From: Chloroflexota bacterium
GTDB taxonomy: Bacteria > Chloroflexota > UBA6077 > FW602-bin22 > CADDYW01
DNA: 64,000 nucleotides
Assembly: GCA_021324795.1 (NCBI GenBank)
Contig: JAJPIK010000067.1
Location: forward strand, 124,001-188,000
Direction of reading: 5' to 3'
Under the pieces are notes generated by a model. That model had not been told where the DNA came from. It worked only from the letters and a program-made list of their open reading frames with translations, and did no database searches. Made by a program: the position numbers and the translations under genes. The number at the start of each line of letters is the position of its first letter. Within the stretch, counting starts at the first letter, position 1. Shown here piece after piece: positions 24,865 through 62,181 of the stretch.

Positions 24865-26490
24865 TTACAAATCTCCACTTCGCGCCATGGTGGCAATGTA
24901 GTCCGCCGTACGCGCCGCGATTGCCGAAATCGTGATCGCCGGATTCGCCGATCCTTGGGTGACCATCACGCTACCGTCGCAAATCCAGAGGTTGGGTACG
25001 TCCCAGCTCCGGCAAAACTGATCGACGACTGACGTCCGCGGATCATCACCCATGCGGCAGGTACCAACCAGGTGCGCGTAGCGATTCACATAGTGCGTCT
25101 CGACTGCTCCCGCTGCTTCCAGTACATCCTTGGCGCGTTGCACGCCGGCGCGGATCAATTTCAGGTCGTTCTCGAATAAGTTGAAGTGAGCATACGCCAC
25201 CGGGATGTCGTACTGGTCGGTTTCAGGGGCAACACTCACATAATTGCGCTCATCGGGGAGCAGCTCGCCCAGGACGCCGATCGCGGCGTAGTGATTGTAC
25301 TCTTCCATTAAGTGGCGGAGATTCCAACCAAATGGCTCGCTCTCTTCGGTAAGCAGGTGGGCCATCGCGATTGGCAGCGGCGAAACGCTTTGCAAGGCAT
25401 AGCCGCGCACAAAATCATTGCGAGGATCGGTCTCGTAGAACTCTTCGGTTTCGGCGCAGGCAGGCGGAGCTTTGTACTGCCGGATCATCGTTGGGAATCG
25501 TCCCCAAACGACCTGACCAGCTTGAGCCATGAGGCGTTTGCCGACCAGGCCACTTGAGTTCGCGAGGCCGTCGGGAAAGCTTCCCGAGCGCGAATTCAGT
25601 AAGAGGCGAGGAGTCTCGATCGCATAACCCGCGACGACGACGTGCCGCGCTTTCTGCTCCGCTTCTTCGTACTTTCCCTCGTCCATAGTGCGGAAGTAGC
25701 GGACGCCAGTAACCCGACCATCGCTGTCGAGAGGAATTTCGTAGGCCATGCATTCGGCACGAATTTCGGCGCCATGATCAATCGCATCCGGGATGTGACT
25801 GACTAGAGTGGAATGCTTCGAGCCCACCTTGCATCCTTGCAGGCAGAAACCGCGAAAGATGCAGTGAGGTCGTTTGCCAAAAGTCCCGGCGGTGATCCCG
25901 ATCGGTCCCCCCGGCACGACTGGGATACCAAGCTCGACACAGCCGCGAATCAGGGCGTGGCCGGCCGTCCCTGACTGGAGTGGTGCGTAAGGATAAGAAT
26001 GTGGCTTACCCCACGGAAAGTACGCCGGGCCCGCGACCGGATACTCACGCTCCATCGCCTCATAATAGGGCTCGAGATCTTCATAGCGAATCGGCCAGTC
26101 GTCGGCAACTCCGTCGAGACTGCGTACCATGAAATCCGACGGATGCAGTCGCGGACAGAACGCCGCGTAGTGAACAGTGCTTCCGCCCACGGTCTTCCCC
26201 GAATTGTTCGCGCCGAGCTGTAGTGGCTCGTCTCCCCCGGTGATTCGCAAGTCGTTCCAATAGAGTGGTCGCGCGCCGGCCTCGTCGCTGACCATATCGC
26301 GCTCGGAATCCATCCACTTACCCGCCTCCAGGCAGACGACCGAGAATCCTTTGCGTGCCAGGCGCTGGGCAAGCACACCACCTCCGGCCCCGGTGCCGAC
26401 GATGCAAAAGTCGACTGGCTCGTTCTGCGGGTACGCTCGCATCTCGACGTCTAGAAACCAATCCGGGGACAGATTAATCTGAAGTCTCAT
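24865..26490 (-). CDS. GMC-family FAD oxidoreductase (gluconate 2-dehydrogenase large-subunit-like)
   Basis: DFCIVGTGAGGGVLAQRLARKGFSVVCLEAG; C-terminal GTCRMGDDPRTSVVDQFCRSWDVPNLWICDGSVMVTQGSANPAITISAIAARTADYI. Confidence 0.95.
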   Translation of the reverse strand: MRLQINLSPDWFLDVEMRAYPQNEPVDFCIVGTGAGGGVLAQRLARKGFSVVCLEAGKWMDSERDMVSDEAGARPLYWNDLRITGGDEPLQLGANNSGKTVGGSTVHYAAFCPRLHPSDFMVRSLDGVADDWPIRYEDLEPYYEAMEREYPVAGPAYFPWGKPHSYPYAPLQSGTAGHALIRGCVELGIPVVPGGPIGITAGTFGKRPHCIFRGFCLQGCKVGSKHSTLVSHIPDAIDHGAEIRAECMAYEIPLDSDGRVTGVRYFRTMDEGKYEEAEQKARHVVVAGYAIETPRLLLNSRSGSFPDGLANSSGLVGKRLMAQAGQVVWGRFPTMIRQYKAPPACAETEEFYETDPRNDFVRGYALQSVSPLPIAMAHLLTEESEPFGWNLRHLMEEYNHYAAIGVLGELLPDERNYVSVAPETDQYDIPVAYAHFNLFENDLKLIRAGVQRAKDVLEAAGAVETHYVNRYAHLVGTCRMGDDPRTSVVDQFCRSWDVPNLWICDGSVMVTQGSANPAITISAIAARTADYIATMARSGDL

Positions 26491-27172
26491 CCAGTCGTAC
26501 CTCGCGCACTTCCCAGGGTTCCGGGTAGCCGTGATTCAGAGCAAAGTAGCCCCGAGGATAGGCTGGGCCGCCGAAGCCGATCTCGTCCCAGGCCGTCGGA
26601 TGGGCATAGTAGATCGAGGTCATCTGACGGAGAACGATGTAGATCCAAAAACGCCGTGGGGGCAAATTTCGCCAAACTTCACCCGGTGGCTGGCCTCCAG
26701 CGATTGTGCGCAGCACGTGGTCTTGTTCATCGGGTCGTAGCAGGATGAACTGCTGTCCATAGGACGCGATGGCGACTTCGTCGATTCCCAGCAAGCCGAG
26801 TCGCCAGGCCTCGTCATCCGGCGGCATGTCATCGAAGCGCCAACCGTCAAGCAATCGCAAGTAGCAGCGCTGATCGATCCATGGAGCGATGGGAATTCGT
26901 TTCTCTGCCGGTCGATCGTCCTGCGGTAAGACGCGGGCCGCGAGAGCCTGAAGCGTTTGAATCTCGTGCGGTTTGAAGAAGCGAAACGCCGGCACCTGAT
27001 TGATGCGCGTCATGATCACCTGGCGCGTCGCCTCGTCCCAATGCTCTTGCTGATCAAGGACGTGGAAGCCGGGATAAGCGACGATTGGTCGCTCCACCGG
27101 GCGTTTTTTTGTTGCTTGCACCAAGGTCGGATTGGCGAGTGGGTCGTCTCCAGCGCGCTGACTCATCACCAC
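26474..27172 (-). CDS. Gluconate 2-dehydrogenase subunit 3-family protein
   Basis: FKPHEIQTLQALAARVLPQDD...; overlaps GMC gene; characteristic partner; no obvious Tat signal. Confidence 0.8.
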   Translation of the reverse strand: MVMSQRAGDDPLANPTLVQATKKRPVERPIVAYPGFHVLDQQEHWDEATRQVIMTRINQVPAFRFFKPHEIQTLQALAARVLPQDDRPAEKRIPIAPWIDQRCYLRLLDGWRFDDMPPDDEAWRLGLLGIDEVAIASYGQQFILLRPDEQDHVLRTIAGGQPPGEVWRNLPPRRFWIYIVLRQMTSIYYAHPTAWDEIGFGGPAYPRGYFALNHGYPEPWEVREVRLDETSD

Positions 27173-27609
27173 CGCTCCCGTCGGACAACTGAGGCGACGA
27201 TGCCGAGCAAGCCAACACTACAGAAGAGCAACGGAGCAAACAGCGGCGGTCCCATGGTGAAATTGAACCAGAAGTTGCGAAAACCGCCGGCCATACGGCT
27301 GACTCCGCGCAAATGTAAATAGAATCCGAGCACACCATCAAAGAACGACGCTACCGCGGTGAGTGGCAGGACAGTACGGGCTACTCGCTCACTGTAGAGC
27401 GCGCCAATCCCGGCTCCGGCCACGAACGGCGTCAACCACACTGGCGTCCACATCACCCGCTGACAAAAGCTGCCCCGGAGATGCTCGAAAAACGCCTCTC
27501 CACCCGCGATAACCACGAAAATTGCCGTGGTGAGAGCAAGGAGACGCTGGAAACGCCCATGCGCAAGATCACTGCGCACGGAGTCAAGACTGGCAAAGGA
27601 AGAATTCAT
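27166..27609 (-). CDS. Small four-TM-type membrane protein, paralog A
   Basis: MNSSFASLDSVRSDLAHGRFQRLLALTT...FFEHLRGSFCQRVMWTPVWLTPF...YLHLRGVSRMAGGFRNFWFNFTMGPPLFAPL; ATG at 27609. Confidence 0.75.
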   Translation of the reverse strand: MNSSFASLDSVRSDLAHGRFQRLLALTTAIFVVIAGGEAFFEHLRGSFCQRVMWTPVWLTPFVAGAGIGALYSERVARTVLPLTAVASFFDGVLGFYLHLRGVSRMAGGFRNFWFNFTMGPPLFAPLLFCSVGLLGIVASVVRRERW

Positions 27610-27659
27610 CGTTTCTGTCCGTTTTCCCGGGTGGCCGCCCGAGCTTTCTCGAGAATCCG

Positions 27660-28199
27660 CTACCACGAATTTGGTCGCCGCTCCGGTTGAAGCGCGGAAG
27701 CAAGCAGTCCAAGAATCCCAACACTTAGCATGAATAGCGGTGCGAAGATCGGCGGACCCATTGTGATGTTGTACGTAGCGAAGCGGAAACCGCCGGGCAG
27801 CCGACCAACTCCTTTGAGGTGATAAATGAAGCCGACAATACCGTCGACAATGATCGCCAGAGACATCCAGGGGAGAACAGCGTGTGCTACCGCTCGGTTG
27901 AAAACGCTGAGCAAACCAGCCACTACCATCGGCGGCGTCAAAAGGACCGGGGTCCACATGAGCCAATCATTGTAGGCTCCGCGCATATGCTGGACGTAGG
28001 CTTCGAATCCTGAAACGAGCGCCGAGAATGCCGCCAAAATGCCGAACGTACGTTGCAAGCGGCCGTGCCGCACTTGGGAAACTGCCCATGCGGCGTCACG
28101 ATCGAGATGAATGCGTGGAGCAGAAGAAATGATCGTCGCCGTAGCGGCCTCCGAGGGCACCCGACAACGTTGGAGAAAAGGAGATCGGGCGCACGTCAA
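27660..28199 (-). CDS. Small four-TM-type membrane protein, paralog B (tandem duplicate of A); exact start uncertain
   Basis: VRHGRLQRTFGILAAFSALVSGFEAYVQHMRGAYNDWLMWTPVLLTPP...YHLKGVGRLPGGFRFATYNITMGPPIFAPL. Confidence 0.75.
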   Translation of the reverse strand: MTCARSPFLQRCRVPSEAATATIISSAPRIHLDRDAAWAVSQVRHGRLQRTFGILAAFSALVSGFEAYVQHMRGAYNDWLMWTPVLLTPPMVVAGLLSVFNRAVAHAVLPWMSLAIIVDGIVGFIYHLKGVGRLPGGFRFATYNITMGPPIFAPLFMLSVGILGLLASALQPERRPNSW

Positions 28200-28256: not shown

Positions 28257-28958
28257 CTAGAACTTCAAACGCTTGAACGCTTCGGCGTACTCGAGACCGT
28301 GATCCTTCCCAGCCTCGCGCAGCCCCTGGCGTACCCGCTCCTCGAGCGTGTCAAGGCGCTGCTCAACTTGACTTCGGTGATTCTTGAGCGCCGCAATCCG
28401 CTGATTGACAGTCTCGGAAACGTCCTCCCAGTGATCCGGGTCTTGCGCCCAGAAGAGATAAGCCTCCTTGACTCGCCAGGGCTGTCGCTCGCCTAGCAAT
28501 TGCTCTGGGAAGATATACCACTCCCGAGCCGCGAAGATGGCATCAAGAGCGGCTTGCCCAGCCGCCCGATGATCGGGATGTAATTGATAATGACGCCAGG
28601 GATCGATAGTAAGGACGACATCCGGCTGCCGCTCGCGGAGGATTAGACAAAGTCGCCGACGCAGCTCGAGCGTATTCTCCAGAACGCCGTCCGGATAATT
28701 CAAATAGATAACCTCTTTGACACCAAGTACTGTGGCTGCCGCGCGTTGCTCCTCCTCGCGTCGCCCAGCGATCTGTCCCGGACGGACCGCGGCGTCGTGC
28801 GAGCCCTTGTCACCACTTGTCAAGAGAAGGTAGGTAATCTCACGTCCCATCGCCGCCCATTTGGCAACCGTACCGGCACAGCTAAATTCTGGATCGTCGG
28901 GATGAGCGGCGATTACCATCACCCGGCGGATTTCTTCGGCGCGTTCTTGTTCTGACAT
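28257..28958 (-). CDS. PIG-L/LmbE-family deacetylase
   Basis: RVMVIAAHPDDPEFSCAGTVAKWAAMGREITYLLLTSGDKGS; LHPDHRAAGQAALDAI. Confidence 0.95.
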   Translation of the reverse strand: MSEQERAEEIRRVMVIAAHPDDPEFSCAGTVAKWAAMGREITYLLLTSGDKGSHDAAVRPGQIAGRREEEQRAAATVLGVKEVIYLNYPDGVLENTLELRRRLCLILRERQPDVVLTIDPWRHYQLHPDHRAAGQAALDAIFAAREWYIFPEQLLGERQPWRVKEAYLFWAQDPDHWEDVSETVNQRIAALKNHRSQVEQRLDTLEERVRQGLREAGKDHGLEYAEAFKRLKF

Positions 28959-31445: not shown

Positions 31446-31801
31446 GGGGATGATTGGTTTCGACGGCGGAGGAAGGTTAGCAGTAGCAAGCCGAGATGCC
31501 GGATGGTCACTCGTAAAACACCGGCAAAACAATAACTGCCAACAATCAAGAATTGGCCCTCGCCGCCTAATTAGGCGGTGACGTCTGCCTCAGCCTCACT
31601 CCGATGGGCTGAGAGCGGGCGCTGAAATGTCGGAGTGCTCTCGAGGTAGCGCGGACGAGCCTCGAGCTAAGACTAGTCCGATAGTCTAGCTGGACCCCGT
31701 CAGCGGGGGCCGGCCGGACGAAACCAAATCGCTGACTAAGCTTGTAGGTGACTGCTGGCTCATTTCGTCGGACCCGGGTTCGACTCCCGGCATCTCCACC
31801 A
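31446..31801 (+). ncRNA. ssrA: tmRNA; tag ANNQELALAA* at 31538-31570
   Basis: 5' ggggatgattggtttcgacgg and 3' gggttcgactcccggcatctccacca; acceptor GGGGATG/CATCTCC; tag GCC AAC AAT CAA GAA TTG GCC CTC GCC GCC TAA. Confidence 0.97.
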
Positions 31802-60489: not shown

Positions 60490-62181
60490 ATGACATACCG
60501 CTCATATCCGCGTCGCTCCCGGTGGGATGATTCCCGACGCGGCGTATTACCTTTCGGACAAAGATCGGCAATCCAAATGGACAATCGTGTCCCCCTGCCG
60601 GCCCTGCCACCGCTTGCACCGGCAACGGACACTCAGCGACAGATCACTGACAACATTGACGCCCTTCTGGATACCCTACCCCTCCGGATCGCCGACCCAA
60701 TCCGGACGATGGAAGACCGTGATAATTTACTCGAGGTCGTCCTCGATCTCGGTCGCCTCCCAGAGGTCCGCTTCCCGGGGCGAGAGGTCGTCGTGACGAC
60801 CGAAGAAGTGTCCGTAGCCGATCTCGATTACGTTGTCTCGCGCATCGGCGAGTTTGGCGAAGACAACCGCGCCGGTATCGAACGGACCCTCCATCGCATC
60901 TCCTGCATGCGCAATCGAAAAGGACGGATCGTTGGCCTAACCTGTCGAATTGGTCGGGCGGTCTACGGCACGATCGCGATCATCCGTGACATCATCGAGT
61001 CCGGACGTAGCACGCTCTTACTGGGACGACCGGGGGTTGGCAAGACAACGATGCTGCGTGAGGTTGCTCGGGTTCTCGCCGATGACTTCAAGAAGCGTGT
61101 CGTCATTGTTGACACGTCCAATGAGATTGCCGGCGACGGTGACATTCCTCACCCGGGAATCGGTCATGCCCGTCGCATGCAGGTGCCTCGGCCAAACTTG
61201 CAGCACGCGGTGATGATCGAGGCGGTTGAAAATCACATGCCCGAGGTTATCATCATCGATGAGATTGGGACCGAGCTCGAAGCCCTAGCAGCGCGAACAA
61301 TCGCCGAGCGGGGTGTTCAGCTTGTTGGCACCGCACACGGAACGAGCTTGGAAAATCTCATGCTCAATCCGACCTTATCCGATCTGATTGGTGGCATCCA
61401 AAGCGTAACCCTTTCCGATGAGGAGGCGCGTCGACGCGGCACCCAAAAGTCGATCTTGGAGCGTAAAGCGCCGCCGACCTTTGACGTCGTCGTCGAAATT
61501 CAATCCTGGGATCGCGTCGCGGTTCATTTGGATGTCGCGATCACCGTCGACGCGATTCTGCGCGGTCATCCGCTGCCCGCGCAGCTTCGTGCCCTGCAGC
61601 CGTCCGGAGAGATCAAGGTCGAGCAGGCAAGACCGGTGTCGCTGGAGGCGCCTGCTCCGACTACTCGCACCGAGCCGACTCCGAGAATGGTCAGCCGACG
61701 AGAGACATCCAACAAGCCGCTCCGGATTTATGCCTACGGGATCAGTCACAGTCGTCTCGACCAAGCGGCACAGGCCCTCCAGCTTCCGGTCGAGGTGGTG
61801 AAGGATCTACAGCAGGCTGATGCGGTTCTCACGCTCAAGAATTACTATCGCAAGCGAGGCACGGCGATTCAGGAGGCCGAGCAAACCGGAGTTCCGGTGT
61901 ACGTTCTCAAGAGCAACACCTTGGTCCAGGTCCAGCAAGGTTTGGCGAGCTTGTTCGACCTGGATGTGCCACCAGATCCGGTCGCGGAAGCGCTCGCCGA
62001 GACCCAGGATGCGATCAATCACGTCCTTTCTGCCGAACAGCCGGTCGAGCTCTCACCACAGAACGCGTATATCCGACGCTTGCAACACGAGATGGCGGAG
62101 AAGTACAATCTCGCTTCACGTAGCGAAGGGCGAGAGCCTCATCGGCGAGTCCGTATTTTTAACGCATCGCGTATGGAATAG
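60490..62181 (+). CDS. AAA ATPase with C-terminal R3H domain (Ycf45/SpoIIIAA-like)
   Basis: STLLLGRPGVGKTTMLREVARVLADDFKKRVVIVDTSNEIAGDGDIPHPGIGHARRM; R3H-like tail RRLQHEMAEKYNLASRSEGREPHRRVRIF; start may be internal. Confidence 0.92.
   Translation: MTYRSYPRRSRWDDSRRGVLPFGQRSAIQMDNRVPLPALPPLAPATDTQRQITDNIDALLDTLPLRIADPIRTMEDRDNLLEVVLDLGRLPEVRFPGREVVVTTEEVSVADLDYVVSRIGEFGEDNRAGIERTLHRISCMRNRKGRIVGLTCRIGRAVYGTIAIIRDIIESGRSTLLLGRPGVGKTTMLREVARVLADDFKKRVVIVDTSNEIAGDGDIPHPGIGHARRMQVPRPNLQHAVMIEAVENHMPEVIIIDEIGTELEALAARTIAERGVQLVGTAHGTSLENLMLNPTLSDLIGGIQSVTLSDEEARRRGTQKSILERKAPPTFDVVVEIQSWDRVAVHLDVAITVDAILRGHPLPAQLRALQPSGEIKVEQARPVSLEAPAPTTRTEPTPRMVSRRETSNKPLRIYAYGISHSRLDQAAQALQLPVEVVKDLQQADAVLTLKNYYRKRGTAIQEAEQTGVPVYVLKSNTLVQVQQGLASLFDLDVPPDPVAEALAETQDAINHVLSAEQPVELSPQNAYIRRLQHEMAEKYNLASRSEGREPHRRVRIFNASRME

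Follow-up and report, generated by a model that had tools for sequence, protein, structure and literature searches.

Gene block and genomic setting

The window, a 64,000-nucleotide stretch of a Chloroflexota MAG, carries a block of four minus-strand ORFs that lie exactly at the coordinates of the original prediction. P0001 (27660-28199, minus strand) and P0002 (27166-27609, minus strand) are the twins, two four-helix membrane proteins; P0003 (26474-27172, minus strand) is a Gluconate_2-dh3 (PF13618) small subunit that lacks a Tat signal; and P0004 (24865-26490, minus strand) is a GMC-family FAD dehydrogenase. P0001, an ORF that belongs to no Pfam or NCBIfam family, is nearest to repeat 1 of the fused homologs discussed below, and P0002, defined by its ORF and an AlphaFold2 model, corresponds to repeat 2. 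A gap of 50 nt separates the two, and the last three genes overlap as had been claimed, P0002 sharing bases with P0003 and P0003 overlapping P0004 by 17 nt. The start of P0001 is uncertain, with a TTG at 28199 and neither an ATG nor a clear ribosome site. P0003 as given starts at a GTG (27172); a likelier start is the ATG at 27166, which shares one base with the TGA of P0002.

The block is flanked by leuS/rsmG on one side and on the other by a gene (28257-28958) that, judged from its sequence, presumably encodes a PIG-L family deacetylase. Farther along the window, ARAGORN places a tmRNA gene with the tag ANNQELALAA at 31446-31801. The twins are present at one place in the source genome, the window block. 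The four genes are real, and their arrangement is far more than chance.

The dehydrogenase and its small subunit

P0004 matches both GMC models well above cut-off: PF05199 at 94.8 bits (cut-off 24.6, E 8.7e-27) and PF00732 at 67.5 bits (cut-off 23, E 2e-18). Its best match in the PDB is the FAD-glucose dehydrogenase of Burkholderia cepacia (BcGDH; 6a2u, E 2.2e-47), followed by fructose dehydrogenase (7w2j and relatives, E 8.8e-44). His107 of P0004 aligns with BcGDH His105, the FAD His, and His473 and Asn515 align with His476 and Asn519, the catalytic His/Asn pair. Cys210, Cys216, and Cys220, which form a C-x5-C-x3-C motif (25831-25863, minus strand), align with BcGDH Cys212, Cys218, and Cys222, proven ligands of a [3Fe-4S] cluster in an enzyme whose residue roles have been described (PMC6719666). 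Each of the 41 GMC sequences compared has the motif. As judged from these alignments, P0004 is a redox-complete GMC flavoprotein with the predicted residues for FAD and a [3Fe-4S] cluster.

P0003 matches PF13618 at 78 bits against a cut-off of 23.4 (E 9.3e-22), and its sequence supports its assignment as the putative small subunit of P0004. On a plasmid of Deinococcus sp. D7000, subunit 3 and GMC are fused in one 865-residue protein (L097:5446-8043), an indication that the two form a complex. In Granulicella tundricola, the GMC is annotated as two overlapping ORFs (L080:8756-10433) and may be frameshifted. The GMC enzyme is nearest in the PDB to FAD-glucose and fructose dehydrogenases, which make a better comparison than the gluconate 2-dehydrogenase first named. 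An alcohol or sugar is proposed as the substrate class, as part of the best explanation of the block.

No twin-arginine motif or hydrophobic signal is found near the N-terminus of P0003, and a Tat signal is absent from every subunit 3 examined, both in the window and among clade relatives. None of the four block proteins contains a CxxCH motif; the only long CxxCH frame in the window lies at 60494-60793. The block is accordingly as first described in lacking both a cytochrome c subunit and a Tat signal. These absences bear directly on whether the block encodes an ordinary exported three-subunit FAD dehydrogenase, with its cytochrome c gene elsewhere and the twins as incidental neighbours. Subunit 3 and GMC are homologous to those of the classical complex, and a second PF13618 gene does lie elsewhere in the window's genome; nonetheless, no subunit 3 of the clade carries a Tat motif, the membrane gene is strictly linked over five phyla, and the GMCs concerned belong to a single clade. 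An exported three-subunit complex was rejected for want of a Tat signal and a cytochrome c, and this explanation is highly improbable.

The twin membrane proteins

P0001 and P0002 share 45.5% identity over 134 residues (tblastn E about 2e-37), and their alignment contains every motif that the original prediction listed as common to both. The AlphaFold2 model of P0002, built from 51 sequences (pLDDT 93, pTM 0.83), has helices at residues 2-17, 19-46, 51-72, 80-105, 109-119, and 124-141. A model of a fused relative (L005 protein, JAJPGT010000020.1; pLDDT 83) has the same arrangement in repeated form.

Each repeat contains two invariant histidines. The first, at the end of TM1, is His71 of P0001 (QHMRG; codon 27987-27989, minus strand), which aligns with His43 of P0002 (EHLRG; codon 27481-27483, minus strand). 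The second, in TM3, is His127 of P0001 (YHLKG; codon 27819-27821, minus strand), which aligns with His99 of P0002 (G-x2-G-x3-H; codon 27313-27315, minus strand). In the P0002 model, helix 80-105 contains His99, and His43 is at the end of helix 19-46. Within a repeat, the two histidines, candidate axial haem ligands near the ends of TM1 and TM3, lie towards the same side. Both are invariant in all 51 single repeats aligned and in 37/37 two-repeat proteins; in these 37, the TM3 histidine is preceded by glycine at -4 and -7. Glu38 of P0002 is conserved and Asp91 mostly so. The expected conservation of histidines is thus found for the two H-x-(R/K)-G residues in every aligned repeat, but not for the histidine of HGRxQR, which varies and was ruled out as a ligand for that reason.

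Searches of Pfam, NCBIfam, and PHROGs with twin-family members from several phyla assign no family, the few matches being weak or far below cut-off. The suggested HMM search of the twins themselves likewise gives no Pfam or NCBIfam family above cut-off. A sequence profile of the family finds nothing in the PDB better than E 1.1, and Foldseek comparison of the fused and single-repeat models with the PDB gives no match at E<=0.001, hence no convincing match to an unrelated structural family, an outcome that was to count against the prediction. By the same searches of Pfam, NCBIfam, PHROGs, and PDB folds, the twins belong to no described family of b-type cytochromes or quinone anchors. The twins are one family, without a Pfam, NCBIfam, or PHROGs model and without a convincing fold match in the PDB.

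Distribution and gene order

Among 400 Chloroflexota genomes searched, 34 carry the membrane gene, and subunit 3 adjoins it in 31. One of the three exceptions, G236, ends at a contig end; the other two, G088 and G240, have a multihaem cytochrome instead. Most Chloroflexota carriers encode both repeats in one fused eight-helix ORF of roughly 330-380 residues. The window's own family has its two repeats as two separate genes, and only a single half-size copy was found in G127, G276, Frondihabitans, and two Deinococcus plasmids. Immediately upstream of the half-size histidine protein, Deinococcus plasmids carry a small VKOR-like membrane ORF (L081:6625-7014 and L097:4601-4999). The L081 copy matches Pfam VKOR at E 6e-6, just below cut-off, and was rejected as a candidate for the missing twin on account of this resemblance.

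Annotated plasmids extend the distribution to Acidobacteriota, Deinococcota, Actinomycetota, and Pseudomonadota, where the membrane gene is mostly labelled 'hypothetical protein'. Subunit 3 and GMC lie directly downstream in 14/14 of the plasmid loci opened that have an intact membrane gene, which cover these four phyla beyond Chloroflexota; the count includes Deinococcus AJ005, where subunit 3 is unannotated but was found downstream of the membrane gene. Across the five phyla, the order membrane gene, subunit 3, GMC is kept almost always, and the membrane gene hardly ever lacks subunit 3 and GMC, as predicted.

The same linkage emerges from the GMC side. Of the 289 plasmid records that contain a GMC match, the 26 whose GMCs are closest to P0004 (43-57% identity) are all records that carry the membrane gene: 25 of these appear in the membrane-gene list, and the exception, P. 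acidisoli, has the gene on inspection. None of nine plasmid GMCs examined at 40% identity or less has a membrane gene beside it. The sole further record in the plasmid list, Embleya sp. NBC_00888, has only a short fragment (L131:4001-4129), the last 43 residues of a repeat inside an unrelated frame with no subunit 3 or GMC nearby; it is either a relic or an artefact of the assembly. In a maximum-likelihood tree, the 37 partner-bearing GMCs all fall on one side of a branch with support of 96/88, which places the GMCs that have a membrane partner in one clade.

Many loci add further genes, namely a TPP enzyme, an enolase-superfamily protein resembling sugar-acid dehydratases, an SDR, and a GH15 trehalase-like hydrolase. 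The TPP enzyme scores above cut-off against the PRK08273 model (one member scanned). These additions suggest that sugars or sugar acids are oxidized. The window's own genome has its nearest TPP and enolase homologs (45% and 57% identity) at sites unlinked to the block. Elsewhere, a cassette of PRK08273, enolase-superfamily, SDR, and GH15 genes recurs across several phyla (L044, L084, L087, L088, L089, L090, L096, and similar loci), sometimes with an SMP-30 lactonase and a sensory rhodopsin transducer, and is a candidate for a sugar-oxidation pathway that has no name.

Remote relatives and the history of the repeats

The membrane proteins of the two cytochrome-bearing Chloroflexota genomes, P0005 (G088) and P0006 (G240), are remote homologs of the family (hhalign against the family profile, E 2e-12 and 4e-8). 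In the joint alignment, all four histidines occupy invariant columns. Each protein adjoins a cytochrome with eight CxxCH motifs, with no GMC alongside; as a query within the phylum, P0005 recovers only the same family. The pairs of membrane homolog and octahaem c cytochrome (PF13447; L058:7879-10283 and L059:6509-9119) look undescribed too.

Four invariant histidines and multihaem-cytochrome neighbours point to redox work, and it is chiefly these remote relatives that favour electron transfer over transport. Invariant histidines can have roles other than haem binding. The twins might instead form a haem-free quinone-binding anchor, in which quinone, at a site formed by the invariant histidines with conserved Glu/Asp residues in TM1 and TM3, would take electrons straight from the [3Fe-4S] cluster of the GMC. 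Gene order favours such an anchor as much as it favours a haem protein. Also in its favour are the invariant histidines, Glu38 (conserved) and Asp91 (mostly so) in P0002, and the lack of a Foldseek match to any known haem-b protein fold in the PDB; the octahaem neighbours of the remote homologs and the Gly-x2-Gly-x3-His pattern, however, fit haem binding at least as well. A haem-free site is a rather unlikely alternative.

That the protein exists in single-copy, split, and fused forms is consistent with a dimeric unit. In a tree of single repeats, the window's two repeats group together beside the single-copy proteins and apart from other Chloroflexota repeats. The data speak against one duplication in the common ancestor (p-AU 0.03), a value to be read with the caveat that the groups were picked after the tree was seen and that the columns are few. 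Independent duplications of a dimeric four-helix unit would explain the repeat tree, as would gene conversion between repeats. The split state in the window family may be secondary, because the fused relatives G185 and G099 branch beside this family in the GMC tree.

A proposed route for electrons

The interpretation we favour, with a confidence a little better than even, is that a GMC/[3Fe-4S] dehydrogenase feeds quinone through a dimer of four-helix histidine proteins, probably acting as a haem-b or quinone-binding anchor. The block would encode a membrane-attached dehydrogenase in which, by analogy with the BcGDH complex, P0003 binds P0004 and electrons pass from substrate to FAD and on to the [3Fe-4S] cluster within the GMC. 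Conservation and gene order suggest that the twins, each a four-helix unit, pair as a heterodimer, which would be replaced in relatives by the fused protein or probably by a homodimer of the half-size form. On the same grounds, the four invariant histidines might be ligands of b-type haem or part of a quinone site. The membrane dimer could then stand in for the classical cytochrome c subunit and hand the electrons on to quinone. A firm claim of cytochrome replacement was softened, as the nine related GMC loci that lack the membrane gene also lack an annotated cytochrome c nearby.

Topology poses a difficulty. Because both histidines of a repeat lie on the same side, one unit would not carry electrons across the whole membrane. 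Summed over the listed segments, about 8 Lys+Arg lie on the face of the termini and about 5.5 on the histidine face, and acidic residues are commoner on the termini face; these counts weakly favour an N-in orientation that would put the histidines on the outer face. GMC and subunit 3 are expected to be cytoplasmic because both lack an export signal. An outer histidine face fits poorly with a cytoplasmic GMC and counts against the proposed quinone route. Either the topology is the reverse of the weak charge prediction, or the GMC reaches the site another way.

The absence of clear support for electron flow from the charge-based topology leaves some room for a membrane protein outside the electron path altogether, serving as a substrate channel, an assembly factor, or a docking platform while the GMC uses another acceptor. 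In many of the GMC/subunit 3 pairs examined, both the membrane gene and an annotated cytochrome c are missing from the neighbourhood, so dependence on a dedicated acceptor is not a general feature. Against a role outside the path, the four histidines are absolutely invariant over five phyla, and relatives adjoin multihaem cytochromes without any GMC; we consider such a role improbable.

The quinone route through the dimer can be generalized. The membrane proteins might constitute a novel superfamily of membrane electron carriers, each a dimer of four-helix units with two invariant histidines, that work on the quinone side with cytoplasmic GMC/[3Fe-4S] dehydrogenases in many phyla and elsewhere with octahaem c cytochromes, the dimer having become a tandem duplicate independently more than once. 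This broader proposal is tentative, and we hold it with less than even confidence. The narrower idea from which the analysis began, an undescribed module built on GMC and subunit 3, is strengthened by the conserved histidines, the nearly absolute co-occurrence, and the lack of a structural match. Searches of open-access papers, a literature that misses most subscription journals, found no description of the module.

Comparison with known systems

The block represents the FAD dehydrogenase complexes in a variant form, one whose membrane partner is unannotated. In complexes of this group, which are used in glucose sensors, the known electron exit is a cytochrome c. If the membrane protein is the exit, the same enzyme would be wired to respiration differently, in soil bacteria and bacteria associated with plants that together represent at least five phyla. 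The proposed exit is a protein that databases label 'hypothetical' and for which no family model exists.

Like the gamma-alpha-beta FAD-GDH complex of B. cepacia (PDB 6a2u, 8grj), the window block combines a GMC bearing the covalent-FAD His, the [3Fe-4S] cysteines, and the His/Asn pair with a PF13618-type small subunit encoded beside it. Unlike that complex, it has no Tat signal on the small subunit and no multihaem cytochrome c, and it has an eight-helix membrane partner. BcGDH Cys213, which bonds the two subunits of that enzyme, is Ile in P0004, and the cysteine is not conserved. The GMC large subunit is also shared with fructose dehydrogenase (7w2j and relatives), whose known complex includes a three-haem cytochrome c subunit (PMC6472588), whereas the window block has no cytochrome c subunit. 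To the haem-b anchors of fumarate reductase and succinate dehydrogenase, the likeness lies in the proposed role only, the transfer of electrons from an iron-sulfur flavoprotein to quinone; the twins have no Pfam or PDB fold similarity to those anchors and differ from them in being a duplicated four-helix unit with two histidines per unit.
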